Part shown: piece after piece, positions 43,930 to 61,968 of the stretch
Numbering within the stretch: the stretch's first letter is position 1
Layout: each line of letters begins with the position of its first letter
NCBI RefSeq assembly: GCF_039851975.1
Contig: NZ_CP156660.1
Coordinates: 496,001-560,000 of the forward strand
Source: Desulfoscipio sp. XC116
GTDB taxonomy: Bacteria > Bacillota > Desulfotomaculia > Desulfotomaculales > Desulfallaceae
Reading direction: 5' to 3'
DNA: 64,000 nt
Notes under the pieces: generated by a model
Databases searched by the model: none
Told to the model about the DNA's origin: nothing
What the model saw: the letters and a program-made list of their open reading frames with translations, nothing else
Made by a program: the position numbers and the translations under genes

Positions 43930-44082
43930 ATTGTTGCCTAAGCTGAACGATTAAGTTTCCATGTAGCTTTGGATGTCGTGTTATAGCTATTGGCATCTTT
44001 GCGTTCTTGTGCCATAATGAGTGGATTAGTTATCATATTTAGACATGTTGATATTCACGTTAACACTAAGGAAGGTATACTT

Positions 44083-45645
44083 ATGAACTGGCAGCAAATG
44101 GTTTTGTCGGTGCTGGCGGGGGCCGTTATCGGTTATATCACCAACTGGATTGCCATTCGCATGTTATTTCGGCCTCTGTACGAAAAAAGGTTGTTGGGCT
44201 TGCGAGTACCCTTTACCCCGGGGGTAATTCCCCGCGGGAAAGGGCGCCTGGCCGGTGCCATCGGCGAGGCGGTGGGCGGTATGCTGCTCACTGAGGAAAA
44301 GGTGGTGCGGCATTTGCTGCAGCCGGAAGTAGAAGAGCAAATGCGGTGCTATCTGGCCGATGGCGTGACTAAAACACGGGAACGTGGGATTGGTGTTGGC
44401 GAAGCGTTGGGCGACCCCGGGGGAGAGTCGCAGTTTTTCCTGAAGTTAACTGAACTGTTTTCCGGCCTGGCGGTAAAGCTGGTCCGGGGTGACGCATCCC
44501 GCCGGGTGGCGGGCCAACTGGCGCGGGAAGTTGCGGATTATCTGCTTGATCGGACTGTCGCAGATACGATTGACGCGTTAAATGCGGCCGGCTCAGGTGA
44601 TGCGTTGTTGGATGCTCCGGAGCAGCTGCCTGCGGTATTATTGCAGCAGCCGGCCGTGCAGCAGGAACTGCAGCGCCGTTTGTCCGCGGCAATCGAAAAC
44701 TTTCTCAATAGCTCTCGGACGGTTGGTTATTACTTACCCGGTGCCGTGCAAGAGGGTATGCACCAGTTTGTTGAAGACCAGGCCCCCCGCATTATCGCGG
44801 CGATTGAGCAGTATGTCAATTCCCCGGGGGCCCGGCAAGCCATAAAAGGCCGCATCGAGGAATTTTTTGAAAGCACGACCATCAAGCGGTTTGTCAATGG
44901 GCTGTTTCAGCTTATGGGCAATGGCAGCGATATGCTGGTGCAGCGGCTGGCTGTGGAAATAACCCGGTTTTTCGCCGATGAAAAGAACCGGGCGGAAATT
45001 GTCAATCGCTTGCATTTGCTGGTGGATGAAACGCTGGAAAAAAGTATTAGTGATATTGTCGCCGGTTTGGATGACGCCGGTAAACGGGAAAAGGCCGCCG
45101 AGATAGCCGCCCGGGCTGTGGACAAGCTGCGCGATCCGGCTGTAGCCGCTGCCTTGACCGGTGCCGCCGGGGAATTGATTGACGGAAACCGCGGCCGGAC
45201 CTGGCGGGAGCTGCTTGACCGGGCTAATCCCGACTGGCCTGCGCAGCTGGCGGTTTTTGGCGAGCGTTTGGTGAAAAATTTATGGGAACGGGATGCGCTG
45301 GCGCAGGGTGTGGATGCGCTGGTGCGGCGGGAAATAGCAGCGGTTTGGCAACTGCCGCTGAGTCGTGTGCTGGACCTGCTGCCCGACGGTTTTATAACCG
45401 ATTCCGATGAAACGGTCACCAGGCTGTACCGCTATCTGGTGCGGAAACAGGCACCGGGGCTGCTGCGGTTTATTGATATCAGGGGCATGGTGCGGCAGCG
45501 GGTGGAGGAGCTTGATGAACTGCAGGTGGAGGAAATGCTGCTCGGTATCATGCGCCGGGAACTGGTGGCTATTACCTGGCTGGGGGGGCTGCTGGGGGCT
45601 GTGCTGGGCGTGGTTACTGTTGCCATGCAATATATAATGAAATAA
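44083..45645 (+). CDS. DUF445-family membrane protein (YheB-like)
   Basis: The 520-residue protein begins with a membrane helix followed by YITNWIAIRMLFRPLYEKR and VPFTPGVIPRGKGRLAGAIGEAVG, the DUF445 signature. A long helical soluble part follows, and a second membrane helix lies at the extreme C-terminus (TWLGGLLGAVLGVVTVAM), repeating the layout of the family. YheB-type proteins are sporulation- or envelope-associated in Firmicutes; no activity is known. ATG 44083 is preferred, with GGAAGG upstream. Confidence 0.85.
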   Translation: MNWQQMVLSVLAGAVIGYITNWIAIRMLFRPLYEKRLLGLRVPFTPGVIPRGKGRLAGAIGEAVGGMLLTEEKVVRHLLQPEVEEQMRCYLADGVTKTRERGIGVGEALGDPGGESQFFLKLTELFSGLAVKLVRGDASRRVAGQLAREVADYLLDRTVADTIDALNAAGSGDALLDAPEQLPAVLLQQPAVQQELQRRLSAAIENFLNSSRTVGYYLPGAVQEGMHQFVEDQAPRIIAAIEQYVNSPGARQAIKGRIEEFFESTTIKRFVNGLFQLMGNGSDMLVQRLAVEITRFFADEKNRAEIVNRLHLLVDETLEKSISDIVAGLDDAGKREKAAEIAARAVDKLRDPAVAAALTGAAGELIDGNRGRTWRELLDRANPDWPAQLAVFGERLVKNLWERDALAQGVDALVRREIAAVWQLPLSRVLDLLPDGFITDSDETVTRLYRYLVRKQAPGLLRFIDIRGMVRQRVEELDELQVEEMLLGIMRRELVAITWLGGLLGAVLGVVTVAMQYIMK

Positions 45646-45711
45646 GGTTAAAAACTGTTGACCTTGATTATGTTTTTACTGTATACTGAGATGTAGATTT
45701 CATTTAATATT

Positions 45712-46000
45712 AAAGGTTATGAAGGGGATCAATACCTGCAGGCCGCGCCAACAGAGAGCTGGGTTGCTGAAAGCCAGTGCCGGAACAGGTTGAGGCATCG
45801 CCCCGGAACTGCTTTGTCGAAAGGCTGTCGCCTGGTAGGCGAAGTCGGGAACAGGTGGCCCGTTATTGCCGTCGTGTCGCTGACACACTCAAGGGGCTTT
45901 CGCCGCCGGGCGGAAGCAAGCAGGGTGGTACCGCGGGAGGAATTTAGCGCCTCTCGTCCCTGGTGTTTATTCACCAGGGACGGGAGGCTTTGTATTTTAT
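45712..46000 (+). promoter_or_regulatory. T-box leader (probably Ile) with terminator
   Basis: The T-box sequence AGGGTGGTACCGCGGG lies at 45922-45937 and the stem I AGAGAG...GCTGAAAG features at 45755-45785. A GC-rich terminator (45950-45987, arms CTCGTCCCTGGTG/CACCAGGGACGGG) is followed by CTTTGTATTTTATT. Uncharged tRNA binding should favour the antiterminator and turn the operon on. In stem I, the specifier loop between CAGGT and CCCC reads UGAGGCAUCG, so AUC (Ile) is the most plausible codon; that reading is not certain. It controls the ilv-leu operon. Confidence 0.93.
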
Positions 46001-46044
46001 TCAGTATTCTTATGAGATCGGTGATTTGTTTTTAACATCAAACT

Positions 46045-46206
46045 GGAGGGAAGTGTACCTAGGGTTCCGCCTCTTCATTGAGGGACTGGACCAAGCGGTA
46101 CAGACCGCCGGGCTTAATTGCCGGAGGTTACACCGTGGGGATAAAAGACCCAAGCGGATAGGTTCCACCCTTGGAAAATATCAGCGGGGTCTTATTTATT
46201 TTTATA
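46045..46206 (+). promoter_or_regulatory. ppGpp riboswitch (ykkC subtype 2a) with terminator
   Basis: Signature elements of the ykkC aptamer class appear in order: CTAGGGTTCCG (46060-46070), GGACTGGACCAAGCGG, and GGGGATAAAAGACCC (46137-46151). The closing stem is ACCTA (46057-46061) with TAGGT (46159-46163). AAGACCC (46145-46151) can instead pair with GGGTCTT (46187-46193), followed by ATTTATTTTT, making a terminator that excludes the aptamer's 3' part. The variant ykkC class upstream of branched-chain amino acid genes is known to sense ppGpp; guanidine and PRPP are the alternatives for related aptamers. Confidence 0.88.
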
Positions 46207-46343
46207 GATTTTTTTAAGTTGGTACGGGGGGTGAAAAAACAGCGGCTGTTAATTAACCGGTAGTGGCGGGTAAATTTCGACATTTAGTGGTCATATTTGG
46301 GTTTAACCTAAAATTAACTGAATCATAACAGGAGTGTGAAGTT

Positions 46344-47222
46344 ATGGGCCTTATAATTTATTTGGATGGTAAATATGTACCTGAGGAAGAAGCGGTTGTA
46401 TCGGTATTTGACCATGGTTTACTATACGGTGATGGTGTGTTCGAGGGCATTCGGGCTTATCACAACCGGGTTTTTAAACTGCCCGAACATCTGGAAAGAT
46501 TGTATGAATCAGCCCGCACCCTGACACTGGCCATTCCCGTCAGCATCGAGGAAATGCAGGAAGTCGTGCTGGAAACCCTGCGCCGTAATAATTTGCGGGA
46601 TGCTTATATCCGTTTGGTGGTAACCAGGGGTAAAGGTGATCTGGGTTTGGACCCCCGCAAATGCTCGCGGGCCACTGTATTCTGTATTGCGGCTTCCATT
46701 CAGCTTTATCCGGAGGAATTGTATGAGCAGGGTTTGGAAATGGTCACTGTGGCCACCCGGCGCAACCTGGCGGAGGCCTGTAATCCCAGGGTTAAATCTC
46801 TCAACTACCTGAACAACATTTACGCTAAAATTGAAGCTGCTTTAGCCGGTGTGCCCGAGGCTATTATGCTCAATCAAGAAGGTTATGTAGCCGAGGCTAC
46901 CGGAGATAACCTTTTCCTGGTTAAAAAAGGCAAGCTTATTACTCCGCCTATCTATGTGGGGCTGTTGGAGGGTGTTACCCGCAATGCCGTAATAGATTTA
47001 GCCCGGCAAAAAGGCATTGTCGTGGAGGAAAAAGTATTTACCCGGCATGATGTGTATAATGCCGATGAATGCTTCCTTACCGGTACGGCGGCTGAATTAA
47101 TCCCCTGCGTGCGGGTGGATGGCCGCACTATCGGCAGCGGCAAACCCGGCGAAGTATTTCGGAGCTTGCTTAAAGACTTCCGGGCACTGACCAAGCTGGA
47201 CGGACCGGTTATATTTGAGTAA
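46344..47222 (+). CDS. ilvE: Branched-chain amino acid aminotransferase
   Basis: The 292-residue class IV PLP enzyme has the family features FDHGLLYGDGVFEGIRAY (about 21-38), NPRVKSLNYLNNIYAK with the PLP Lys (about 153), EATGDNLFLVKKGKL and GLLEGVTRNAVIDLA. It catalyses the last step to Val, Leu and Ile using glutamate. It is the first gene after the tandem T-box/ppGpp leader, with AGGAGTGTG before its ATG. Normal length. Confidence 0.94.
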   Translation: MGLIIYLDGKYVPEEEAVVSVFDHGLLYGDGVFEGIRAYHNRVFKLPEHLERLYESARTLTLAIPVSIEEMQEVVLETLRRNNLRDAYIRLVVTRGKGDLGLDPRKCSRATVFCIAASIQLYPEELYEQGLEMVTVATRRNLAEACNPRVKSLNYLNNIYAKIEAALAGVPEAIMLNQEGYVAEATGDNLFLVKKGKLITPPIYVGLLEGVTRNAVIDLARQKGIVVEEKVFTRHDVYNADECFLTGTAAELIPCVRVDGRTIGSGKPGEVFRSLLKDFRALTKLDGPVIFE

Positions 47223-47323: not shown

Positions 47324-48988
47324 TTGCGCAGCGATGCTATGAAAAAGGGGCTGGAAAAAGCCCCCCACCGTTCTTTGTTCAAAGCGCTGGGTATGACCGA
47401 GCAGGAACTGGAGCGGCCCATTATTGGCGTAGTCAATTCATTTAACGAAATAGTGCCCGGACATCTGCACCTGCGCGAAATCACCGAGGCGGTCAAGGCC
47501 GGTATCCGCATGAACGGCGGCACCCCCATGGAGTTTCCCGCCATAGCGGTGTGCGACGGTATTGCCATGAACCATGAGGGCATGAAATATTCCCTGGCTA
47601 GCCGGGAAATTATTGCCGACTCGGTGGAAGTAATGAGCATGGCTCATCCCTTCGACGGCCTGGTGCTGGTTACGGCTTGCGACAAGGTGGTGCCCGGCAT
47701 GCTGATGGCCGCGGCCCGGATTAATATACCCGCCATTGTAGTCAGCGGCGGGCCAATGCTGGCCGGTCGTCATGCAGGCCGGGATGTGTCCCTCAGCAAC
47801 ATATTCGAGGCTGTGGGTGCGGTGCGGGCCGGTAAAATGACCGAGGCCGAACTGGCTGAAATTGAAGAATCGGTGTGCCCGGGATGTGGTTCTTGTGCCG
47901 GTATGTTTACCGCCAATTCCATGAACTGTCTCACCGAGGCCCTGGGCATGGCCTTGCCCGGCAATGGGTCGCTGCCCGCGATTTCCGCGGCGCGCCGGCG
48001 CCTGGCTAAATTGAGCGGTATGCGGGTGGTCGATTTAGTGCGGGAAAATCTGTGTCCTTCGGATATTATGACCGCTAAGGCATTCGCCAACGGTTTGGCC
48101 CTGGATATGGCCCTGGGCTGCTCCACTAATACGGTGCTGCATTTGCCCGCCATTGCCCACGAGGCCGGGGTGGAAATAAACCTGGATATTATAAATCAGG
48201 TCAGCGGGAAAACCCCCAACCTGTGCAAACTCAGCCCCATGGGGCCGTACTTTATGCAAGATTTGGATGAGGCCGGGGGGGTATCCGCCGTGCTCTGTGA
48301 ACTGATAGCCCACGGGCTGGCTGACGGCAGTGCGGCAACCGTTACCGGTAAGACGCTGGGCGAAAATGTGTCCGGCGCGGCGATAAAACGCGGTGAGGTT
48401 ATCCGCGGCGCAGCCGACCCGTACAGTCCCAGCGGCGGTATTGCCGTGCTGTACGGCAGCCTGGCCCCCGGCGGAGCGGTGGTGAAAAAGGCCGGGGTAG
48501 CCCCGGAAATGCTCAAACACCGCGGGCCGGCACGGGTGTTTAATTCCGAGGATGAGGCCTGCCGGGCCCTTATAGATAGGCAAATCCAAAAGGGCGACGT
48601 TATTGTTATCAGATACGAAGGGCCCAAGGGCGGTCCGGGTATGCGGGAAATGCTTACCCCCACTGCTACGGTTGCCGGATTGGGAATGGATAAGGATGTG
48701 GCATTGATTACCGACGGGCGGTTTTCCGGAGCCACCCGGGGGGCTTCTATCGGACACGTTACTCCCGAAGCCGCCGAGGGCGGTCCCATTGCTGCGCTTA
48801 AAGACGGCGATCTAATTGAGATTAATATACCCGAGTGTAAGCTGGATGTGCTTTTAAGCGATGAAGAGCTGGCCGCCCGGCTGGGCCGGTGGGTGAAGCC
48901 CGAGCCCAAAGTGCGCAAAGGCTACCTGGCCCGGTATGCCCAACTGGTCACTTCGGCGGGTACCGGGGCTGTTTTGAAAAAACTATAG
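47324..48988 (+). CDS. ilvD: Dihydroxy-acid dehydratase
   Basis: The 554-residue protein opens [17 protein letters not shown] from a TTG start with AGGAGG upstream. Iron-sulfur ligands are visible in [10 protein letters not shown] and [43 protein letters not shown] near the C-terminus is the second family signature. It dehydrates dihydroxy-isovalerate and dihydroxy-methylvalerate in Val and Ile synthesis. It lies 101 bases after ilvE. Confidence 0.97.
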
Positions 48989-49128: not shown

Positions 49129-50787
49129 ATGCAAAAAACCGGGGCACAAATCCTGGTGGAAAGTCTCCTGGCCGAGGGGGTGGATACTATTTTCGGCTAC
49201 CCGGGAGGGGTGGTGCTGCCGATTTACGATGTGCTGTATGATGCCGATATCCGGCATATATTGACCCGGCACGAGCAGGGCGCTGCCCATGCCGCCGATG
49301 GCTATGCCAGGGCCTCCGGTAAACCCGGAGTTTGTCTGGCCACGTCGGGGCCCGGGGCGACCAATTTAGTTACCGGCATTGCCAACGCTTATATGGATTC
49401 AGTTCCCATGGTGGCTATTACCGGGCAGGTGCCGACCTCTTTGTTGGGCAAGGACTCTTTTCAAGAGGCCGATATTACCGGCATAACATTGCCCATTACC
49501 AAACATAATTTTATAGTTAAAGACGTCAATGACGTTGCCAGGACGGTGCGGGAGGCTTTTTATATCGCCACCAGCGGCCGGCCCGGCCCGGTGCTTATCG
49601 ATATGCCCAAGGATGTGTCCGTGGGCGTGGCGGAGTACACGGACCCGGGGCCGGTGCAGCTGCCGGGATATAAAACAAATAACGAGCCGGATACCGAGCA
49701 AGTGGCCAGGGCCGTCAGGGCGATTGAAGAATCCGAGCGGCCCGTTATTTATGCCGGTGGCGGAGTAGTGAGCGGCGGAGCGCACGGAGAGCTGTTGGAG
49801 CTGGCTGAAATGCTGCTGATGCCGGTGGCTACCACACTCATGGGCCTGGGTGGTTTTCCCGGCAATCATCCGCTGTCGGTGGGCATGCTGGGCATGCACG
49901 GCAGTAAATACGCCAATTACGCCATCAACGAATGCGATTTGCTGATTGGCGTGGGAGTGCGTTTCGATGACCGGGTGACCAGTAAGCTTGAGGAATTCGC
50001 CCCCGGTGCCGTCATCATGCATATTGACATAGACCCGGCGGAAATAGGGAAAAATGTAGGGGTGGATATTCCCCTGGTGGGTGATGTCCGGCTTACCCTG
50101 CGCAAAATAATTGAGCGTCTCAGGCCCAGGCTGGCCAGTCAATGGCGGGATAAAATCGGGGTCTGGAAAAAGGAGCACCCCTTTGAATTTGTGGAAAACG
50201 GGCGCATTAAGCCCCAGGAGGTTATCCAGGAGATTTTCAACGTAACTAAAGGCAATGCCCGGATTACCACCGAAGTGGGGCAGCACCAAATGTGGGCCGC
50301 CCAGTATTACACCTTCACCCGGCCCCGGACTTTCATATCATCCGGCGGACTGGGCACCATGGGGTTCGGTTTCCCCGCGGCCATCGGCGTGCAGGTGGCC
50401 TGTCCGGATGAGACGGTTATTGATATTGCCGGGGACGGCAGCATTCAGATGAATATCCAGGAGCTGGCCACGGCGGTGCATTATAATTTGCCCGTGAAAA
50501 TAGCCATTATGAACAACGGTTTTCTGGGTATGGTCCGGCAGTGGCAGGAGCTGTTCTATAACCGCCGTTATTCCTACACCGAGCTGGATAACCCGGACTT
50601 TGTCAAGCTGGCCGAGGCCTATGGCGCCGTGGGCATACGGGTGAGCAAGAAATCAGAAGTACGGCCCGCCCTGGAGGAAGCCATGGCGTCGGCCAAACCG
50701 GTGGTGCTTGATTTTCCCATTGAGCGGGAGGAAAATGTATACCCCATGGTTCCCCCCGGCGAGCCCATCCATAAAATGCTGGGATAG
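49129..50787 (+). CDS. ilvB: Acetolactate synthase, large subunit
   Basis: The 552-residue TPP enzyme has YPGGVVLPIYDVL and RHEQGAAHAADGYARASG (catalytic Glu) at the N-terminus, the FAD/middle domain, and the TPP-Mg motif IAGDGSIQMNIQELATAVHYN...MNN near 440. It condenses pyruvate with pyruvate or 2-ketobutyrate. Its regulatory subunit ilvN follows after 11 bases. A second catalytic paralogue is encoded at 52625. Confidence 0.96.
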   Translation: MQKTGAQILVESLLAEGVDTIFGYPGGVVLPIYDVLYDADIRHILTRHEQGAAHAADGYARASGKPGVCLATSGPGATNLVTGIANAYMDSVPMVAITGQVPTSLLGKDSFQEADITGITLPITKHNFIVKDVNDVARTVREAFYIATSGRPGPVLIDMPKDVSVGVAEYTDPGPVQLPGYKTNNEPDTEQVARAVRAIEESERPVIYAGGGVVSGGAHGELLELAEMLLMPVATTLMGLGGFPGNHPLSVGMLGMHGSKYANYAINECDLLIGVGVRFDDRVTSKLEEFAPGAVIMHIDIDPAEIGKNVGVDIPLVGDVRLTLRKIIERLRPRLASQWRDKIGVWKKEHPFEFVENGRIKPQEVIQEIFNVTKGNARITTEVGQHQMWAAQYYTFTRPRTFISSGGLGTMGFGFPAAIGVQVACPDETVIDIAGDGSIQMNIQELATAVHYNLPVKIAIMNNGFLGMVRQWQELFYNRRYSYTELDNPDFVKLAEAYGAVGIRVSKKSEVRPALEEAMASAKPVVLDFPIEREENVYPMVPPGEPIHKMLG

Positions 50788-50798
50788 GAGGGGTAGAT

Positions 50799-51320
50799 AT
50801 GCTGAGGCATACTCTGGCGGTGCTGGTGGAAAACAGCCCGGGCGTGCTGGCCCGGGTGGCCGGCCTGTTCAGCCGGCGCGGATACAATATCGACAGCCTG
50901 GCGGTGGGGCGCACCGAAAGTCCCGACGTGTCCCGGATGACCATCGTTGTTGACGGTGACGAAAGGGTTTTGGAGCAGGTCACCAAACAGCTGCACAAGC
51001 TGGTGGATGTGATTAAAATAAATGATATTACCGTTGATGAATATGTTGACCGGGAACTGGTGTTAATAAAGGTAAACGCGGACTCCGCCCAGCGGGGCGA
51101 GGTGATGCAGATTGCCGATGTGTTCCGGGCCCGTATCGTGGATCTGGGCCGCAAGACACTAACACTGGAGTGTACGGGTAACGACGGTAAAATAAATGCT
51201 TTTGAAGAATCCCTGCGCCCGTACGGCATCAAGGAACTGGTACGCACAGGCAAAATTGCCATGCTTAGAGGTTCAAAATATACAGGATACCAGGATAACG
51301 GTACCAAGGAGGAGATTTAA
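50799..51320 (+). CDS. ilvN: Acetolactate synthase, regulatory small subunit
   Basis: The 173-residue protein begins with an ACT domain ([30 protein letters not shown] in part) and has the C-terminal IlvN domain ([22 protein letters not shown]). It binds valine to feedback-regulate IlvB. ATG 50799 has AGGAGGGG upstream. It sits between ilvB and ilvC at 5-11-base spacing. Confidence 0.96.
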
Positions 51321-51325
51321 TAACT

Positions 51326-52321
51326 ATGGTTAAGGTTTATTACGATCAAGATGCAGACTTAGCGGTGCTCAAAGGTAAAAAGATTGCTATCATGGGTTAC
51401 GGCAGCCAAGGGCATGCCCAGGCTCAGAACTTAAAGGACAGCGGTTTGGATGTAGTGGTGGGTTTGCGCAAGGACAGCGCCAGCTGGCCCAAAGTCGAAG
51501 CGGACGGCCTGACTGTAACCACGGTGGCCGAGGCCGCCAATCAAGCTGAAGTGATTCAAATATTGCTGCCCGACGAAACCCAGGCCCGGGTTTACGCCGA
51601 GGAAATCGCGCCTTATCTCACCGAAGGCAAGGCATTAATGTTCAGCCACGGCTTTAATATTCACTTCGGGCAAATTCAGCCGCCTAAAAATGTGGATGTG
51701 TTTATGGTGGCTCCCAAGAGTCCCGGTCACATGGTGCGCCGGATGTACGTGGATGGCCAGGGAGTGCCGGGGCTGATGGCCGTGCACCAGGACTACACGG
51801 GCCGGGCCCGGGAAACCGCCATGGCGTATGCCAAGGGCATTGGCTGTACCCGGGCGGGGGTATTTGAAACTTCCTTCGCCGAGGAAACTGAAACCGACCT
51901 GTTCGGTGAGCAGTGCGTGCTGTGCGGCGGTGTCAGCGAGCTGATCAAAGCCGGGTTTGAGACCCTGGTGGAAGCGGGCTACGCCCCGGAGATGGCTTAT
52001 TTTGAGTGCCTGCATGAAATGAAATTGATCGTGGACCTGATTAACGAGGGCGGCCTCGGCTGGATGCGCCACTCCATCAGCAATACCGCGGAATACGGCG
52101 ATTATATGGTGGGACCCCGTATCATTAATGAAGAGACCCGGGAAGAAATGCGGGCCGTGCTGGCGGAGATTCAAAACGGAGTGTTTGCCAAAGAGTGGAT
52201 GCTGGAAAACCAGGCCAACCGCCCGGTATTCAACGCGATTCGCAAGCAGGAGAAAGAGCATCTCATTGAAGAGGTGGGCGCTGAGCTGCGGGACATGATG
52301 CCCTGGCTGAAGAAAAAATAA
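51326..52321 (+). CDS. ilvC: Ketol-acid reductoisomerase, class I
   Basis: The 331-residue protein has the NADPH-binding [17 protein letters not shown] (about 25-41) and [14 protein letters not shown], then the metal site [19 protein letters not shown] and [16 protein letters not shown]. It converts acetolactate or acetohydroxybutyrate to the dihydroxy acids. Class I length. AGGAGGAG precedes its ATG. After it comes a 300-bp gap with repeats before the second ilvB. Confidence 0.97.
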
Positions 52322-52624: not shown

Positions 52625-54292
52625 ATGGAAATAACGGCTGCCCAAGCCCTGGTGCAGTGCCTGGAAAAAGAACAAGTGGAAGTGATATTCGGCTATCCCG
52701 GTGGCGCCACCCTGCCGTTGTACGATGCCCTATATGATTCGCCCATCCGGCATGTGCTGGTGCGGCATGAACAGGGGGCGGTGCACGCGGCTGACGGGTA
52801 TGCCCGGGCTACCGGGCGAGTGGGCGTGGTGATGGCCACCTCGGGACCCGGGGCCACCAATCTGGTCACCGGTATAGCCAATGCATACATGGACTCCATA
52901 CCCCTGGTTCTTTTCACCGGCCAGGTGCCCACCAACCAGGTGGGTACCGATGCTTTTCAGGAAGTGGATATCACCGGCATTACTATACCGGTAACCAAAC
53001 ATAATTACCTGGTTAAGGATGCCGCCCAACTGCCCCGGATCATTAAAAACGCGTTTCACATTGCCGCCACCGGGCGGCCCGGTCCGGTGCTGATCGACCT
53101 GCCCAAGGACGTGGCCCAGGCCATGATTAAATTTCAATATCCTGAAACAGTGCAGCTGCGCGGCTACAGGCCTACTTTTCGCGGCCATCCCCATCAGATT
53201 GCCGAGGCGGCCCGGCTGATCGGCCGGGCCGAAAGGCCGGTGATTTACGCCGGGGGCGGCATATTAGGCAGCCGGTCCAGCGCGGAGCTGCTGGCTCTGG
53301 CTGAGACCATCAATGCGCCGGTCACCAATACCTTCATGGGCCTGAGCAGCTTTCCCGGTGATCACCCGCTGTTTCTGGGCATGCTGGGGCTGCATGGCAA
53401 ACGATCCGCCAACCTGGCGGTAACCAACTGCGATTTGCTGATTGCCCTGGGTGCCCGGTTTGACGACCGGGTGACCGGCAAGGTTGCCGAGTTCGCGCCC
53501 CGGGCCGGAGTCATTCACGTGGATATCGACCCGGCGGAAATAGGCAAGAACATACCGGTGCACGTGCCCATTGTGGGCGATGTGAAACAGGTACTGCAGG
53601 AACTGCTGCCCCGGCTGAAAAAAAGAACCGATACCCGGTGGCTGGAGCAGATCCAGGCGTGGCAGAAGGAATATCCGCTGTTCTACGATGCCGGCTGCAG
53701 TGAGCTTAAGCCCCAATACGTGGTGGAGAAGCTGGACGAGATTACCGGGGGCAATGCCGTGGTGGCCACCGATGTAGGTCAGCACCAAATGTGGGTGGCT
53801 CAATTCTACCGGTTTAAACGCGTCGGCGGTTTAATTTCCTCCGGGGGTCTCGGCACCATGGGGTTCGGGCTGCCTGCAGCCATGGGCGCCCAAGTGGGCT
53901 TGCCCGGCGAACAGGTGATTCTGGTGGTGGGTGACGGGGGGTTCCAGATGACCATGCAGGAACTGGCCACCATTGTGGAACAGAAGCTGCCCCTGAAGAT
54001 GATTATTTTAAACAATTATGTGCTGGGCATGGTGCGCCAGCTGCAAAAGGTTTATTGCCAGGGCCGGTACATGGCCGTGGATTTCCGGTTCCATCCGGAC
54101 TTTGAAACGCTGGCCCGGGCATACGGAATTAAAGGATATACCATGCGCACCAAGGAGGAAGTGGACGAACTGCTGCCCCGGGCCCTGGCTGAGCCGGGGG
54201 CGGTTTTGATTAATTGTCTGGTTAGCGCCGAGGAAAATGTCAGTCCCATGGTGCTGGCCGGTAAATCCATCACTGAAGCTATTGATTGTTGA
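52625..54292 (+). CDS. ilvB: Acetolactate synthase-type large subunit, second copy
   Basis: The 555-residue protein is a full paralogue of the ilvB at 49129: YPGGATLPLYDAL, RHEQGAVHAADGYARATG (catalytic Glu), and GDGGFQMTMQELATIVEQK with NN for TPP-Mg. No small-subunit gene follows it. It could share the IlvN at 50799, be insensitive to feedback, or prefer a different keto acid pair. It comes after a repeat-rich 303-bp gap and may have its own promoter; TATAAT occurs at about 52576. Confidence 0.9.
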   Translation: MEITAAQALVQCLEKEQVEVIFGYPGGATLPLYDALYDSPIRHVLVRHEQGAVHAADGYARATGRVGVVMATSGPGATNLVTGIANAYMDSIPLVLFTGQVPTNQVGTDAFQEVDITGITIPVTKHNYLVKDAAQLPRIIKNAFHIAATGRPGPVLIDLPKDVAQAMIKFQYPETVQLRGYRPTFRGHPHQIAEAARLIGRAERPVIYAGGGILGSRSSAELLALAETINAPVTNTFMGLSSFPGDHPLFLGMLGLHGKRSANLAVTNCDLLIALGARFDDRVTGKVAEFAPRAGVIHVDIDPAEIGKNIPVHVPIVGDVKQVLQELLPRLKKRTDTRWLEQIQAWQKEYPLFYDAGCSELKPQYVVEKLDEITGGNAVVATDVGQHQMWVAQFYRFKRVGGLISSGGLGTMGFGLPAAMGAQVGLPGEQVILVVGDGGFQMTMQELATIVEQKLPLKMIILNNYVLGMVRQLQKVYCQGRYMAVDFRFHPDFETLARAYGIKGYTMRTKEEVDELLPRALAEPGAVLINCLVSAEENVSPMVLAGKSITEAIDC

Positions 54293-54307: not shown

Positions 54308-55840
54308 ATGAACAACCGGGTGTATATTTTTGACACTACTCTGCGTGACGGGGAGCAATCCCCGGGGGTGAGTTTAAATGTCAGCGAAAAGTTGGAGATT
54401 GCCAAACAACTGGCCCGGCTGGGTGTGGATATTATTGAGGCGGGTTTTCCCATCACCTCTCAGGGTGATTTTGAAGCCGTAAAAAGCATTGCCCGGGAGG
54501 TGCGGGGGGTAACCGTGGCCGGGCTGGCCCGTCCCAATTTTGCCGATATCGACCGGGCCTGGGAGGCCGTCAAACAGGCCGATCAGGCGCGTATCCACAC
54601 TTTTATCGCCACTTCGGATATTCATCTCAAGCACAAGCTGCGTATGAACAGGGAACAAGTGCTGGAGGCCGCCGTGGCGGGGGTAAAGCGTGCCAAAAGC
54701 TATACTGCCGACGTTGAGTTTTCCGCCGAGGACGCTTCCCGCAGTGATTTGGATTTTTTATGCCGGGTGTTGGAGGCGGTCATTGGGGCGGGAGCAACCA
54801 CCGTTAATATACCCGACACCGTGGGCTACACCACTCCGGATGAATATGCCGAGTTTATCCGCAGTATTATGACCCGCACCAAAGGCATTGAAAGAGCCAT
54901 CGTCAGCGTGCACTGCCATGATGACCTGGGCTTGGCCGTGTCCAATTCCCTGGCGGCGGTGCTGGCCGGAGCCAGGCAAGTGGAAGGGGCCATCAACGGT
55001 ATCGGGGAAAGGGCGGGCAACGCTTCTATCGAGGAATTTGTCATGGCTTTATATACCAGGCGTGACCGGTACGGTCTGGAAACGGCCGTCAATACCGAAG
55101 AAATATACCGCACCAGCAAGCTGGTGAGCAAACTCACCGGCATGGATATTCAGCCCAATAAGGCGGTGGTGGGCAAGAACGCCTTTGCTCACGAATCGGG
55201 CATTCACCAGGACGGGGTTTTGAAAGAGCGCACCACCTATGAAATTATGAACCCGGCCATGGTGGGCCTGTCCCACAGCAATTTGGTGCTGGGCAAGCAC
55301 AGCGGGCGGCACGCTTTCCGCTCCCGGCTGGTGGAATTGGGCTTCGTATTAAATGAAGATGAGCTGAATAAAGCTTTTGCCCGTTTCAAGGATTTGGCCG
55401 ACCGTAAGAAGGAAATCACCGACCAGGATATTGAGGCCATTGTAGAAAACGAGATTCGCAAAGTGCCGGCTGTCTATGAACTGTCCTACTTGCATATCAG
55501 CAGCGGCACCACGGTGGTGCCCACAGCCACGGTCGGCTTGGCCAGGGGCGAAGAAATGCTGGAGGAGGCGGCCTGCTGCGGTAATGGCCCGGTGGACGCT
55601 ATCTGCAAGGCGGTGGACAAAATAACGGGCTACAGCTGCCGGCTGGCCAGCTGGGGCATTAACGCCATCACCGCCGGTAAGGACGCTCTGGGCGAAGTTA
55701 CTTTGCGTATAGCCGAGAACAATCACGAAAAGCTGTACATGGGCCGGGGCATCAGTACCGACGTGCTGGAAGCCAGTGCCCGGGCTTATGTCAACGCAGT
55801 CAATAAAATGATTTACGAAAAAGATAATCACTGTGATTAA
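54308..55840 (+). CDS. leuA: 2-Isopropylmalate synthase
   Basis: The 510-residue protein has the DRE-TIM barrel motif [15 protein letters not shown] at the start, [21 protein letters not shown] (metal ligands), and a C-terminal LeuA regulatory domain (about 390-505). It condenses 2-ketoisovalerate with acetyl-CoA, the first step to leucine. GGGGGG-type ribosome site precedes ATG 54308, 15 bases after the second ilvB. Confidence 0.96.
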
Positions 55841-55854
55841 AATGGGGGTGACAA

Positions 55855-57120
55855 ATGATGGCCATGACCATCACCGAAAAGATACTGGCCGCTCATGCCG
55901 GGATGGACCGGGTGGAGCCCGGGCAGCTGATTAATGTTAAGGTTGATCTGGCTCTGGGTAATGATATCACCGCCCCCGTAGCCGTCCGTGAATTTGAAAG
56001 AATAGGCGTTAAGACAGTTTGGGACCGGGAGCGGGTGGTAATTGTACCCGACCATTTCGTGCCCAACAAGGATATCAAGTCGGCGGAGCAGGTTAAAGGA
56101 TTAAGGGAATTTGTCCGCAAGCATAACCTGACCCATTTTTACGAAGTGGGCCGCATGGGCGTTGAGCACTGCCTGCTGCCCGAGCAGGGGCTGGTGGGAC
56201 CCGGCGATCTGGTTATCGGCGCCGACAGCCATACCTGCACCTATGGTGCCCTGGGGGCATTTTCCACCGGGGTGGGCAGCACTGATCTGGCTGCGGCCAT
56301 GGCTCTGGGGGAAACCTGGCTCAAGGTGCCCGAAAGCATTAAATTTGTTTATAATGGCGAACTGCCCCGCTGGGTGGGCGGTAAAGACTTGATACTGTAT
56401 ACTATCGGCCGGATAGGCGTTGACGGGGCGCTGTACATGGCTATGGAATTTGCCGGCCCGGCTGTTGAGACTTTGGGTATCGAAGGGCGGCTGACTATGG
56501 CCAATATGGCTGTGGAGGCCGGGGCTAAAAACGGTATTGTGCCCCCGGATGAGATAACCCGCCGCTATGTTGAAGGTCGGGCCAAACGGCCCTATAAGTT
56601 TTATCAAAGCGATGCGGATGCCCGGTATGCTCAAGTTATCGAAATTGACGTCAGCAAGCTGGAACCCCAGATAGCTTTTCCCCACCTGCCCGAAAATACG
56701 CGCCCGGTAAGCGAGGCCGCCGATGTAATCATCGACCAGGTGGTCATCGGGTCCTGCACCAACGGCCGCCTGTCGGATTTGCAGCTGGCCGCCGAGGTGC
56801 TTAAAGGGCGCCGGGTAAATAATAATTTGCGGCTGCTGGTTATTCCCGGCACCCAGGATATTTACATGCAGGCGCTGCGGGAAGGGCTGGTGGAACAGTT
56901 TATCGAGGCCGGCGCGGCGGTGAGCACGCCCACCTGCGGGCCCTGCCTGGGCGGGCACATGGGCATTTTGGCCAAAGGCGAGCGGGCCCTGGCTACCACC
57001 AACCGCAATTTTGTCGGCCGGATGGGCCATCCGGAAAGTGAAGTATATCTGTGCAACCCGGCAGTGGCGGCCGCCTCGGCGGTGCTGGGCCGTATTGCCG
57101 CCCCGTGGGAGGTGGAATAA
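55855..57120 (+). CDS. leuC: 3-Isopropylmalate dehydratase, large subunit
   Basis: The 421-residue aconitase-type protein has [34 protein letters not shown] and [12 protein letters not shown], which supply the three Cys ligands of the [4Fe-4S] cluster. The short length indicates the archaeal/clostridial LeuC type, which also serves citraconate from CimA. Three possible Met starts (MMAM); the first is used. It runs directly into leuD. Confidence 0.96.
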
Positions 57121-57121
57121 T

Positions 57122-57634
57122 ATGCTGCTGCAAGGCAAGACATGGAAATTCGGCGCTGATGTGGATACCGATGCCATCATACCGGCCCGGTACTTAAATA
57201 CCTCCGATCCGGCCGAGCTGGCCAAACACTGCATGGAGGATGCCGATCCGGGGTTTCCCGGCAAAGTACAGCCGGGCGACATAATTGTGGCCGATAAGAA
57301 CTTCGGCTGCGGCAGTTCCCGGGAACACGCCCCCATAGCCATTAAGGCGGCCGGGGTAAGCTGTGTAATCGCCAAATCCTTTGCCCGGATATTCTACCGC
57401 AACGCCTTTAATATCGGATTGCCTATATTTGAGTGTCCCGAGGCGGCCCTGGCCATCCGGGAAGGCGATGCGCTAACCGTGGATTCGGCGCAAGGTTTGA
57501 TTAAAAACCTGACTAAAAACGAAACCTACCAGGCTACCCCGGTGCCCGAGTTTATGCAGCAAATCATTGCCGCCGGAGGGCTGATCGGCTATGTATCGGA
57601 AAGACTGCGGGGAGCGGAACAAGGAGTGAAATAA
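57122..57634 (+). CDS. leuD: 3-Isopropylmalate dehydratase, small subunit
   Basis: The 170-residue swivel-domain protein has [15 protein letters not shown] and [13 protein letters not shown], the LeuD signature. It pairs with LeuC. ATG 57122 is one base after the leuC stop, with GGGAGGTGG upstream; the frame is open further 5' but overlaps leuC. Short type, as expected with this LeuC. Confidence 0.96.
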
Positions 57635-57636
57635 AA

Positions 57637-58713
57637 ATGTATACTATCACGTTATTGCCCGGAGACGGTATCGGGCCGGAGGTGGTCGCCGGGGCCGTGC
57701 AGGTGTTGCAGGCGGTGCAAGAGCACACCGGTGAGGAGTTTGTGACGCGGGAGGCCCCATTTGGCGGCAATGCTTACGATAAAACAGGCACCCCGCTGCC
57801 TGAAGAAACACTTAAGCTTTGCCTTGCCGGGGATGCCGTGCTGCTGGGAGCGGTGGGCGGTCCCAAGTGGGATCATCTGCCCGTGCAGCAGCGCCCCGAG
57901 GTGGGTGCGCTGCTGCCCCTGCGCAAAAATCTGGAGGTATTCGCCAACCTGCGCCCGTCGATTGTTTTCCCGGCCCTGGCTGATGCCAGCACCCTGAAAC
58001 GGGAAGTTGTGGACGGACTTGATATAATGGTGGTGCGGGAACTTACCGGAGGTATCTATTTTGGCTCCAAACACCGGGAAACGCTGCCGGAAGGCGGTGT
58101 CAAGGTGGTCGAGACATTAGAGTACACCACCGGGGAAATTGAGCGGGTGGCCCGGGTGGCTTTTGAACTGGCCCGTAAAAGGACCGGCAAACTTACTTCG
58201 GTGGATAAAGCCAATGTGCTGGAAAGCTCGCGTTTGTGGCGGGAGGTCGTATCCGGCCTGGCCGGGGAATATCCCGATGTGGAACTTGACCACATACTGG
58301 TAGACAACTGTGCCATGCAACTGGTGCGCTATCCCAAACAATTCGACGTGCTGCTTACCGAGAACATGTTTGGCGATATATTAAGCGATCAGGCTTCACA
58401 ATTGACCGGTTCCATCGGCATGCTGCCCTCGGCCAGCCTGGGCGGTAAAGTGGGGCTGTATGAACCCATACACGGCTCCGCCCCGGACATAGCGGGACAA
58501 AACCTGGCCAACCCCATAGCCACTATCCTTTCGGTGGCTATGATGCTGCGCCACTCCTTTAACCTGCCACAGGCCGCCGAGCTGGTGGAACAGGCCGTAG
58601 CCGGCGTACTGGACGAAGGTTACCGCACCGCCGACATTATGCAGCCCGGTATGCGGCAGGTAGGCACAGTGGAGATGGCCGAGCTAATTGGGGTCAGGCT
58701 TAAACTTTCTTAA
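57637..58713 (+). CDS. leuB: 3-Isopropylmalate dehydrogenase
   Basis: The 358-residue protein has [12 protein letters not shown] at the N-terminus, [10 protein letters not shown], and [25 protein letters not shown] (metal site), then [15 protein letters not shown]. It oxidatively decarboxylates 3-isopropylmalate with NAD; with LeuCD it can also process the methylmalate made from citramalate. It follows leuD by two bases. Confidence 0.97.
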
Positions 58714-58926: not shown

Positions 58927-60543
58927 TTGCCAAGAGTGGAAATATATGATACGACCTTGCGGGACGGGAACCAGGGAGAGGGTATTTCCTTGTCCGCTAA
59001 GGATAAAGTTAAAATAGCCCTCAGACTGGATGAACTGGGCTTTCATTATATTGAGGGGGGCTGGCCGGGTTCCAATCCCAAAGATTTGCGTTTTTTTGAA
59101 CTGATTAAGGAACACCGGCTGAAAAATGCCCGCATCTGTGCTTTTGGCAGCACCAGAAAATCTGGTATGGCCGCTGACCGAGATGAAAATTTGCAGCAAA
59201 TTGTCCGTTCCAATGTACCGGTGGCCACAGTATTTGGCAAAACATGGGACTTTCATGTCCATCATGCTTTGCTGACTACTTTAGAAGATAATCTAAACAT
59301 GATTCAAGAATCGGTGGCTTATTTAAAACAGCAAGGCATGGAAGTATTTTATGATGCCGAACATTTTTTTGACGGCTTTGCGGCAAATCAGGAATATGCT
59401 TTGGCCACATTACAGGCGGCTAAAAACGGGGGCGCCGCCCGGATTATCCTTTGCGATACCAATGGCGGACGGCTGCCCAATGAAATTTATGATATGGTAT
59501 CGGCGGCCGGCCGGGTTTTAGACGTGCCTTTAGGGGTGCACTGTCATAACGACGGCGAACTGGCCGTGGCCAACTCACTGGCCGCCGTGCAGGCCGGGGC
59601 GATCCAGGTGCAGGGCACCATTAACGGTTATGGCGAGCGCTGCGGCAATGCCAACCTGTGCTCCATTATACCCAATCTGGCCTTTAAATGCCGGCTGCCC
59701 AGCATACCCGGGCAAAGCCTGGCCGAGCTGACGGAGCTGTCCCGGTTTGTCAGTGAGTTAGCCAATATGCACCCTATGGATAACCAGCCCTATGTGGGGG
59801 GCAGTGCCTTTGCCCACAAAGCCGGGGTGCATGTTAACGCGCTGTTGAAAAATCCTCACACCTACGAGCACATTGAGCCCGAAATGGTGGGCAATCGGCG
59901 CCGGGTGCTGGTTTCCGACCAGAGCGGCTTAAGCAACTTGCAGTATAAGTACCAGGAGCTGGATTTGGGGCTGGGTTTGGACAAAGAGGAAAACCGCAGG
60001 CTGCTGGAGGAGTTAAAAGAGCTGGAAAATCAGGGCTATCAATTTGAAGGCGCCGAGGGTTCGTTTGAACTGCGCCTGCGCAAGGCCTTCCACGGTTATC
60101 AGGAGCCGTTCTCGCTGGAGAACCTAAAAATTTTGATCGAAGTGCGTGACGGCAGCGTTTATTCCGAGGCCATTATCAAGATTAATGTCAACGGTCAGGT
60201 GGTGCATACCGCCGCCGAGGGCAACGGCCCGGTTAACGCCCTGGACAATGCGCTGCGCAAGGCCCTGGAGGGTTTTTACCCGGAAATTTCCGGTATGCAG
60301 CTTAACGACTATAAAGTGCGGGTGCTGGATGAAAAGGACGGCACCGGAGCCGTGGTGCGGGTACTGGTGGAAACCGGAGACGGACACTGTTCCTGGGGTA
60401 CGGTAGGGGTAAGTCCCAATATTATCGAGGCCAGCTGGGAAGCTTTGGTGGATAGTATCGCCTATGGTTTGTTGCGACAGCGGAATAAGGATGAATTGGA
60501 TACCAAAAAAATGATTACCGGGGTTTTCCGCGGTAAATGCTAA
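58927..60543 (+). CDS. cimA: (R)-Citramalate synthase
   Basis: The 538-residue DRE-TIM enzyme begins IYDTTLRDGNQGEGISLS, and has FHYIEGGWPGSNPKD, a CimA-type feature, HCHNDGELAVANSLAAVQAGA (metal ligands), and a LeuA_dimer-like regulatory domain (about 395-530). It makes citramalate from pyruvate and acetyl-CoA, giving 2-ketobutyrate for isoleucine through LeuCDB without threonine deaminase. The TTG start has GGAACGGAG upstream. No ilvA is present in the window, in keeping with this route. Confidence 0.94.
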   Translation: MPRVEIYDTTLRDGNQGEGISLSAKDKVKIALRLDELGFHYIEGGWPGSNPKDLRFFELIKEHRLKNARICAFGSTRKSGMAADRDENLQQIVRSNVPVATVFGKTWDFHVHHALLTTLEDNLNMIQESVAYLKQQGMEVFYDAEHFFDGFAANQEYALATLQAAKNGGAARIILCDTNGGRLPNEIYDMVSAAGRVLDVPLGVHCHNDGELAVANSLAAVQAGAIQVQGTINGYGERCGNANLCSIIPNLAFKCRLPSIPGQSLAELTELSRFVSELANMHPMDNQPYVGGSAFAHKAGVHVNALLKNPHTYEHIEPEMVGNRRRVLVSDQSGLSNLQYKYQELDLGLGLDKEENRRLLEELKELENQGYQFEGAEGSFELRLRKAFHGYQEPFSLENLKILIEVRDGSVYSEAIIKINVNGQVVHTAAEGNGPVNALDNALRKALEGFYPEISGMQLNDYKVRVLDEKDGTGAVVRVLVETGDGHCSWGTVGVSPNIIEASWEALVDSIAYGLLRQRNKDELDTKKMITGVFRGKC

Positions 60544-60585
60544 TGAGATGACCGGAATTTGTCTTCCGGGCCGGAGGTAAAGAAC

Positions 60586-61398
60586 TTGACGATGCAAAAA
60601 TACCGACAGTTGAAGGACCATTTGCGGGCCTTTAAAAGCATGCTGGTAGCCTTCTCCGGCGGGGCGGACAGTACCTTTCTCCTTGATGCGGCTATCGACG
60701 TACTTGGAGCGGACAATGTGCTGGCGGTTAATTTCCATGCTCCCTTTCATGAGGAAAACGAATTAATTGAAGTGCGGGAACTGGCCGCCCACTTTAATTG
60801 CCGGCTGGAGGTTATACGGGACAGCGGTTTGTTGGATAATGCCGATTTCTGTGCCAACCCGCCCGGCCGGTGTTACATTTGTAAGGGTACTATTTTAGCC
60901 GCATTACTGGCACTGGCCGAACAAGAAGGCCTGGACGCCGTGGCTGAAGGCTCCAACGCCGATGACTCGCGTGATTATCGCCCCGGCGGGCAAGCGGTGC
61001 GGGAATTGCATGTGCTAAGCCCTTTGCAGAGCGTTTGCTTTACCAAGCAAGAAATCAGGCAGTTGTCCGGAGAGCGGGGACTGCCCACCTGGAACAAACC
61101 CTCCTCACCGTGTTTATGCTCGCGCATTCCTTACGGCAGTCCGATTACATATGCAAAACTGCGGCAAATTGAGTATGCGGAAAGTTTCTTAAAGGATGCC
61201 GGTTTCCCCGAGGTGCGGCTGCGGCATCACGACTGTTTGGCCCGCATTGAAATACCCGCCGATAAAATGGCTGATTTATTGGACGGGCAAATGCTGTCCC
61301 GGGTGCAAAGCTGCCTGAGAGGCCTGGGGTTTCAATACATAACTTTAGACCTGCACGGCCTAAGAAGCGGCAGCTTAAATGAAATATTGCGGGTTTAA
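60586..61398 (+). CDS. larE: ATP-dependent sacrificial sulfur transferase LarE
   Basis: The 270-residue PP-loop protein has VAFSGGADSTFLLDAA (about 25-40) and CYICKGTILAAL, EGSNADDSRDYRPG and SPCLCSRIPYGSPIT. LarE transfers sulfur to the pyridinium dithiocarboxylate precursor of the nickel-pincer cofactor. The extra Cys next to the sacrificial-type Cys (CLC) suggests the iron-sulfur LarE variant that recycles sulfur, which is inference. TTG 60586 is eight bases after GGAGG and is preferred over ATG 60592. It follows cimA by 42 bases. Confidence 0.9.
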   Translation: MTMQKYRQLKDHLRAFKSMLVAFSGGADSTFLLDAAIDVLGADNVLAVNFHAPFHEENELIEVRELAAHFNCRLEVIRDSGLLDNADFCANPPGRCYICKGTILAALLALAEQEGLDAVAEGSNADDSRDYRPGGQAVRELHVLSPLQSVCFTKQEIRQLSGERGLPTWNKPSSPCLCSRIPYGSPITYAKLRQIEYAESFLKDAGFPEVRLRHHDCLARIEIPADKMADLLDGQMLSRVQSCLRGLGFQYITLDLHGLRSGSLNEILRV

Positions 61399-61500
61399 GC
61401 AAGCTCCGGCAATCATGCCTGGCCTCTTAAAATAGGTTATGGTAATGTATTGCCGTTTTTTATTTACCATATAATTATAGAAGCATAAGAGGGTGCGAAA

Positions 61501-61968
61501 ATGGTTTATTCTGAAGAAGTGCTGGTTATGGAAACCGCTGTTGACGATATGAACTCGGAATTTTTTCCATATCTGGTGGACCGGCTGTTGGAGGCCGGCG
61601 CCTTGGACGCTTACTTGCAGCCCATTATTATGAAGAAGGGGCGGCCCGGGACTATGCTTACGGTGCTGGCCAGGGAGGACAGGCAAGACGTTCTTTTAAA
61701 AATTATTTACTCGGAAACATCTACTCTGGGGGTGCGCTTGCGTACTGAACGGCGCATTTGCCTGCACCGGGATTTTCTCACGGCGCAGACTGACTATGGT
61801 GCGGTGCGGGTTAAACTGGCTCTGGAAGAACCCGGGGAACAGCCGCTGAGGTACGCCCCGGAGTTCGAGGACTGCCGGGCCAGAGCTCAAGAGCACAGTG
61901 TGCCGGTACAAAGTGTATACCGGGCGGCAATGCTGGCGGTGGAGGACTCGTTAAAAAATAGTAAATAG
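61501..61968 (+). CDS. larC: LarC C-terminal domain (LarC2) as a separate protein
   Basis: The 155-residue protein matches the C-terminal part of LarC/DUF111: VLVMETAVDDMNSEFFPYLVDRLLEAGALDAYLQPI, MKKGRPGTMLTVL and STLGVRLRTERR. Full LarC is about 400 residues, and in lactobacilli is made from two frames (larC1/larC2) by frameshifting; here no larC1 frame precedes it within the 102-bp gap. LarC inserts nickel into the pincer cofactor. It may work with a LarC1 encoded elsewhere. ATG 61501 has GAGGGTG upstream. Confidence 0.85.
   Translation: MVYSEEVLVMETAVDDMNSEFFPYLVDRLLEAGALDAYLQPIIMKKGRPGTMLTVLAREDRQDVLLKIIYSETSTLGVRLRTERRICLHRDFLTAQTDYGAVRVKLALEEPGEQPLRYAPEFEDCRARAQEHSVPVQSVYRAAMLAVEDSLKNSK

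Follow-up and report, generated by a model that had tools for sequence, protein, structure and literature searches.

T-box leaders paired with ppGpp aptamers have been described before. PMC9481103 lists T box-Leu/ppGpp (16) and ppGpp/T box-Leu (15) arrangements as AND gates with separate expression platforms, which agrees with an earlier note on this DNA that mentioned reports of such tandems; the same T-box/ppGpp gate appears in Fig. 6C of PMC5912903. The words 'specifier' and 'anticodon' are absent from the main text of PMC9481103. A 2025 survey (PMC12452182) describes 'T-box + guanidine' tandems before branched-chain amino acid (BCAA) operons.

The leader described here lies in a window of 64,000 nucleotides from Desulfoscipio sp. 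XC116. In common with the AND gates of PMC9481103 and PMC5912903, it has a T-box and a ppGpp-type aptamer in one leader, a BCAA context and, within a single 5' untranslated region, two ON elements that each have a terminator of their own, an arrangement predicted here from sequence and conservation. It differs from them in carrying AUC, an isoleucine codon, rather than a leucine codon and in preceding an 11-gene cluster that ends in cimA. With the ppGpp riboswitch of Clostridiales bacterium oral taxon 876, as presented in PMC10687018, it shares the fold, the competition of terminator with P1, the BCAA context and the lack of G at position '96', all read here from sequence alone. The PRPP riboswitch of subtype 2b (PMC6031431) has the same fold and most of the same conserved bases, whereas here '96' is A and the genes are those of BCAA rather than purine synthesis. 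The tandems of PMC12452182 join a T-box to an RF00442-type element before the same genes and are probably kin of these loci, but in the class studied here the binding-site bases do not support reading such elements as guanidine sensors. The tandem type is known, and what is new here is the reading of isoleucine: no T-box-Ile/ppGpp pair was found in the literature searched, where the primary ppGpp-riboswitch paper is represented by later ones. What follows supports a predicted RNA gate with two inputs before a large BCAA cluster and identifies the amino acid that it would sense as isoleucine. We regard it as very probable that a tRNA-Ile T-box and a ppGpp aptamer stand in series here and act in an AND-like manner over eleven genes.

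At Rfam gathering thresholds, cmscan of the whole window returned zero matches, and both elements came from a permissive covariance model (CM) search of positions 45600-46400. Positions 45710-45964 of the plus strand match the T-box model RF00230 over its full length (1-219 of 219) with 90.7 bits and E 2.4e-20, 2.3 bits short of the gathering score of 93, and the T-box that the earlier note placed before ilvE was thereby recovered. This stretch runs from Stem I to the antiterminator and is read as a sensor of uncharged tRNA-Ile. The CM alignment places the specifier codon AUC at 45797-45799 and the T-box sequence, AGGGUGGUACCGCG, at 45922-45935; the bulge of the latter, UGGU at 45926-45929, is complementary to the ACCA end of tRNA-Ile. 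Stem I, the T-box sequence and the alternative antiterminator and terminator hairpins are all present by CM match and predicted folds, the specifier suits the regulated pathway, and the cognate tRNA-Ile(GAU), with the 3' end ACCA, is encoded in three places in the genome.

Upstream of the T-box, a pattern scan found a sigma-70/A-type promoter, TTGACC-18-TATACT, at 45658-45687 on the plus strand (10/12 matches). It is the only promoter-like match in 45500-46400, and because shuffled sequences give 0.9, the scan alone is not above chance; the weight of the promoter lies in its conservation, as all tandem loci of the class but one (23 of 24; the exception is L066) have TTGACN-17/18-TATACT ahead of the T-box. 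The open reading frame upstream of the leader (44080-45642, 521 amino acids) has no NCBIfam match at E 1e-10.

Each element is followed by a predicted terminator of its own, as the earlier note had proposed. Terminator 1 (45949-45988, plus strand), found by pattern scan and folding, has 17 pairs followed by a T-run, and the predicted fold of 45945-46000 has an energy of -37.8 kcal/mol. The antiterminator (45921-45962) takes up the CCUCUCGUCCCU strand, which is also the 5' arm of terminator 1. Terminator 2 (46145-46193, plus strand) is followed by AUUUAUUUUUAUA, a U-rich tail; it is missing from the list produced by the simple pattern scan and was found by folding, with -23.6 kcal/mol for 46140-46200. 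Its predicted 5' arm takes in the 3' strands of aptamer helices P4 and P1. By a loose automatic criterion of a hairpin with a T-rich tail, terminator 1 is present in 24/24 tandems and terminator 2 in 23/24, the one miss (L047) being a contig end.

All 24 tandem T-boxes of the class carry AUC as the specifier (15 genomes of family f1, six of f9, two of f5 and one of f18), while the preceding base is C in 14, G in nine and U in one, and the following base is G in 22 and A in two. Because AUC is constant and the base before it varies, leucine, methionine and histidine readings of the tandem T-box were ruled out. As a control on register, ten T-boxes of the same genome were aligned to the CM, with the valS leader (L155) read by eye and L154 and L156 left out. 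Eight of the ten gave the codon expected from their genes: UAC for tyrS, UUC for pheS, AUC for ileS, AUG for metG, ACC for thrS, GGG for glyQ, CUC for the acyl-CoA ligase-leuS operon and UUC for DAHP synthase. Of the remaining two, the serA-operon T-box (L159) lacks a clear codon and L160 shows UUC before open reading frames that match no family at E 1e-60. With the valS leader, which reads GUC, the register yields a ninth expected codon, by eye. The earlier suggestion that the tRNA was "probably Ile" has held up, and the conclusion that the leader would read isoleucine is well supported by these comparisons.

The second element, at 46048-46158 on the plus strand, matches RF00442 (Guanidine-I, ykkC fold) over the full model in the permissive search, with 56.7 bits against a gathering score of 63 and E 2.5e-9. 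RF00442 is the only family that matches it; the other permissive matches in 45600-46400 (S774, mir-296 and SNORD87, E 0.13-0.82) are taken as chance. The earlier note had named this element a ppGpp aptamer and had held that covariance scoring as a PRPP or guanidine aptamer would speak against that. Formally the scoring came out so, with RF00442 alone matching, but the subtype bases point to ppGpp.

Those bases are set out in PMC6031431. Guanidine-I RNAs have A at '49', where the PRPP and ppGpp classes have a pyrimidine; PRPP aptamers, unlike ppGpp aptamers, conserve G at '96', and replacing this base by A (G96A) switches the specificity about 40,000-fold; an added end helix is not part of guanidine aptamers. 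In the aptamer annotated at 46046-46170 (plus strand) from the RF00442 match, covariation in 23 relatives and a residue table, alignment mapping puts C46096 at '49', C46131 at '75' and A46153 at '96', the last placed by aligning the sequence to purE-type RNAs rather than to the structure of the crystallised T. mathranii RNA. The pyrimidine at '49', C at '75' and lack of G at '96' are those given for ppGpp subtype 2a in PMC6031431; the G of PRPP subtype 2b and the A of guanidine-I are both absent. By its subtype bases, then, the second element appears to be a ppGpp-type aptamer.

The same genome holds a second RNA with the ykkC fold (L001/L158, C1:2006361-2006474, minus strand), which has the PRPP signature and precedes purE (TIGR01162); open reading frames resembling purB, purC and purF also lie downstream, purE being the only one identified by family model. 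Where the ilvE leader has A46153, the purE leader has G at the aligned place, a natural contrast within one genome, A versus G at one base, between ppGpp-type and PRPP-type aptamers.

To examine the fold itself, all tandem aptamers but L119, which has a long insertion, were aligned (23 of 24) and counted against a reference structure written from the known fold on the window sequence. Over 35 pairs and 23 loci, 97.1% of cells are paired, and sliding the partners by one column lowers this to 47-55%. Both the ykkC fold and the added end helix are present, the latter paired at 93.7% over the 23 loci. Eight pairs changed on both sides, against a shuffled mean of 2.3 and with none of 500 shuffles as high, and 18 further pair types were seen, a number equalled in 3/500 shuffles. 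These counts are inflated because the aligned sequences are related, and the writing of the structure on the window sequence favours the result as well.

The pairing of these two elements can be followed across the class. An RF00442 search of 113 class genomes gave a match in 62, and 107 loci remained when eight of the weakest of the listed matches, three without the core motif (L014, L051 and L110) and two duplicates were set aside. The ppGpp signature, C at '49' and A before GCGG, occurs at 23 loci (junction CCC-AA in 14, CCC-GA in six and CCC-A in three), and every one of these has a T-box motif 102-205 nucleotides upstream. L060, with the shortened junction CCC-G-GCGG, was counted as the 24th tandem by its T-box and ilvE. 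Downstream, ilvE follows in 23 of the 24 tandems, and the remaining one (L047) ends at the contig edge. The T-box motif gave 25 matches, of which 24 were kept, as the loose motif at the guanidine-I locus L023 fails to align with the rest. Loose downstream matches to the motif at L066/L172 and L186 show no leader in their context, and L058 also has such a match. The tandem, with the same pair in the same order, is therefore present in 24 of the 113 class genomes (the same 15, six, two and one of the four families), and because of this shared order and the covariation of the aptamer we do not regard it as a product of chance.

The PRPP signature CCC-N-G-GCGG occurs at 62 loci, with purE or purB first downstream in 44 and none of the tested genes in 18. 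Looser and more distant T-box motif matches occur at seven of these 62; at three of them, L024, L094 and L116, a CM scan finds no T-box. The scan does place a purine aptamer directly upstream of the PRPP-signature RNAs at L024 and L094, which we take to be the known guanine-PRPP pair. A further 14 of the 107 loci have A at '49', the guanidine-I type. Seven loci fall outside all three groups: L067, L114 and L117 with G at '49', L088 and L092 with CCC-A-GGAG, and L107 and L120, whose junctions could not be parsed. By sequence, the G at '49' in the first three, unlike the ppGpp, PRPP and guanidine groups, may perhaps mark the NDP-sensing subtype 2c.

Downstream of the leader, NCBIfam models scoring over their cut-offs name eleven genes from ilvE through cimA, all on the plus strand, as the earlier note had described them. 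The cluster begins with ilvE, the branched-chain aminotransferase (46344-47222; TIGR01122, 338 bits), followed by ilvD, dihydroxy-acid dehydratase (47342-48988; TIGR00110, 790.5 bits), ilvB, acetolactate synthase large subunit (49129-50787; TIGR00118, 864.3 bits), ilvN, its small subunit (50799-51320; TIGR00119, 220.2 bits), and ilvC, ketol-acid reductoisomerase (51326-52321; TIGR00465, 484.9 bits). A second ilvB-type large subunit, ilvB2 (52625-54292; TIGR00118, 818 bits), precedes leuA, 2-isopropylmalate synthase (54308-55840; TIGR00973, 747.5 bits), leuC (55855-57120; TIGR02083, 710 bits), leuD (57125-57634; TIGR02084, 249.5 bits) and leuB (57637-58713; TIGR00169, 501.3 bits), and the series closes with cimA, citramalate synthase (58927-60543; TIGR00977, 731.1 bits). 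The eleven thus include two acetolactate synthase large subunits and one identified small subunit gene.

A single transcript over all eleven genes is plausible from this arrangement. Between 46200 and 61600 there are 26 terminator-like matches (shuffles give 19.5, sd 5.0), and none of the eight on the plus strand lies in a gap between genes. The ilvC-ilvB2 gap (303 nucleotides) and the leuB-cimA gap (213 nucleotides) hold palindromes without T-runs, as judged by eye, and further transcription starts could lie in these two gaps. Only 15 nucleotides after cimA comes larE, which with an open reading frame carrying a larC2 domain occupies 60559-61968; these are nickel-pincer cofactor genes.

We propose that one transcript from the promoter at 45658-45687 would meet two ON attenuators in series. 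Uncharged tRNA-Ile(GAU) would pair at two places, the AUC specifier and, by way of its ACCA end, the UGGU bulge, and its binding would favour the antiterminator over terminator 1. Binding of ppGpp to the ykkC-2a aptamer would then stabilise P1 and P4. Terminator 2 requires the 3' strands of these two helices, so the polymerase would read through when ppGpp is present. For another ppGpp riboswitch, ppGpp was shown to stabilise P1 against the terminator (PMC10687018). The genome encodes a RelA/SpoT protein (a frame of 726 amino acids, E 3.4e-44). Full expression of ilvE-D-B-N-C-B2-leuA-C-D-B-cimA would require release at both terminators, placing a specific sensor of isoleucine shortage in series with a general sensor of the stringent response. 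With two ON attenuators in a row, overall read-through would be the product of the two fractions, which would make the gate AND-like. Uncharged tRNA itself raises ppGpp through RelA, and the response may for that reason be graded instead of a strict AND. Joining a specific sensor to a general one would hold a costly cluster silent whenever something other than a lack of isoleucine makes ppGpp rise. Since cimA provides the pyruvate route to isoleucine, that amino acid would seem a suitable reporter for a cluster that ends in this gene.

Other identities for the two sensors have to be set against this account. A T-box specific for tRNA-Leu, the published reading of such pairs, would fit the leuABCD genes within the downstream cluster and Table 2 of PMC9481103, which gives both orders as T box-Leu; with AUC at all 24 class loci, and with one register giving CUC for the leuS operon and AUC for ileS in the same genome, we consider this reading highly improbable and retain isoleucine. 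For the second sensor, the family name favours a guanidine-I riboswitch, RF00442 being the sole matching family, as do the T-box and guanidine pairs described before BCAA operons in PMC12452182. The base at the '49' equivalent is nevertheless C and not A, the end helix is kept at high pairing over the 23 relatives (though the window copy has one A-C mismatch there), and the 14 class loci that keep A at '49' have none of the tested BCAA or purine genes downstream, all of which leaves this identity with almost no probability. A PRPP riboswitch of subtype 2b is also most improbable, even though it has the same fold and is told apart from a ppGpp aptamer mainly by a single base: none of the 62 class loci with CCC-N-G-GCGG has a T-box motif 80-260 nucleotides upstream, none has ilvE first downstream, A stands at '96' in 23 of the 24 ilvE-type loci, and a separate purE-type copy with G exists in the same genome. 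One locus outside the class, L225, has a PRPP-type junction before a T-box and an ilvB-like gene, so base and gene context can disagree. Guanidine-I and PRPP identities were accordingly ruled out on binding-site bases and gene context, with L060 and L225 as the exceptions, and the ppGpp call of the earlier note is favoured by the C46096/A46153 signature and the tandem context in the class.

A different objection accepts both elements as real and supposes that only one of them is functional or rate-limiting, so that there is no AND gate. It draws strength from the expectation that uncharged tRNA-Ile and ppGpp should rise together. Both sensors are kept, however, in 24 genomes of four families of the order, with terminator 2 in 23, and because sensors and predicted terminators are conserved together a dead element is not expected; we therefore think this objection unlikely to be right and continue to favour two working sensors in series. 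A practical consequence of the preferred reading is that, where RF00442 is the only basis of annotation, a stringent-response switch can end up labelled 'guanidine', as may have happened in the 2025 survey.

Related pairs occur more widely. A scan of named genomes with a 22-base core pattern gave 34 stretches, including some from Desulfoscipio geothermicus, Sporotomaculum syntrophicum, Desulfotruncus, Desulfofundulus, Desulfovirgula and Carboxydocella; Sulfobacillus and further Bacillota have the T-box after the aptamer. Several of the stretches come from the same genomes as the class relatives. In these 34 the T-box motif lies upstream in 19 and downstream in six, is doubtful in one (L167, whose context is unlike a leader) and is not seen in eight, one of which (L173) is cut by a contig end. 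L184 places a ppGpp-type core before ilvD, ilvB, ilvN and ilvC with no T-box motif within 900 nucleotides, a single-sensor version. A scan of the phylum with aptamer model R1 matched 225 of 398 genomes at E 1e-5, a mixture of types; among the 30 loci listed from it, the T-box is upstream in nine, downstream in one (L225) and absent in twelve, and eight could not be parsed.

The amino acid read by these pairs seems to go with their order. Specifiers were assigned by CM alignment for L166, L186, L191, L192, L195, L197, L204, L205 and L208 and by eye for L185, L193, L196, L206 and L207. Outside the class, T-box-first pairs read AUC at L204, L205 and L208 and at L195, L206 and L207, the last three being of the Carboxydocella type and perhaps one genome repeatedly. 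L186 and L192, on contigs of named genomes, are T-box-first tandems before ilvE with the valine specifier GUC. The six ppGpp-first pairs, before ilvC or leu genes, all carry the leucine codon CUC (L166, L185, L191, L193, L196 and L197). Their junction, CCC-GU-GGCAAG, is unlike GCGG; they are taken as ppGpp aptamers because of their genes and the 22-base core that they share. L225 (genome G462), with its PRPP-type junction, G at '96' and a following CUC T-box before the ilvB-like gene, was set apart from this group. It is likely, in our judgement, that the T-box half is not fixed to leucine, with isoleucine or valine in T-box-first pairs and leucine in ppGpp-first pairs, that the gate either came together on more than one occasion or switched amino acid when another end product became critical, and that the leucine-only label needs correcting for the T-box-first half.

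One further T-box of this genome, outside the window, contains a tRNA gene. L157 (3434-3730, minus strand; C1:2722933-2723229) is, at 144.7 bits, the best of the genome's 15 T-box matches, and it stands before the acyl-CoA ligase gene and leuS with the specifier CUC. A complete tRNA-Ala(GGC) gene, CCA end included, takes up the loop of the helix that directly precedes the antiterminator. No report of a tRNA-Ala gene inside a T-box was found in the literature, judged by titles. The insert is present in 13 of 16 family genomes (this one and 12 others by ARAGORN); L243 and L244 give no tRNA call and have an insert resembling a decayed remnant, and in G011, an 86% complete genome, a full match of the tRNA-bearing T-box was not found. 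It also occurs in all seven loci examined from three other families of the order, and within the family two different tRNA-Ala bodies occupy the same T-box slot. Excision of the tRNA-Ala would separate the sensor from the antiterminator.
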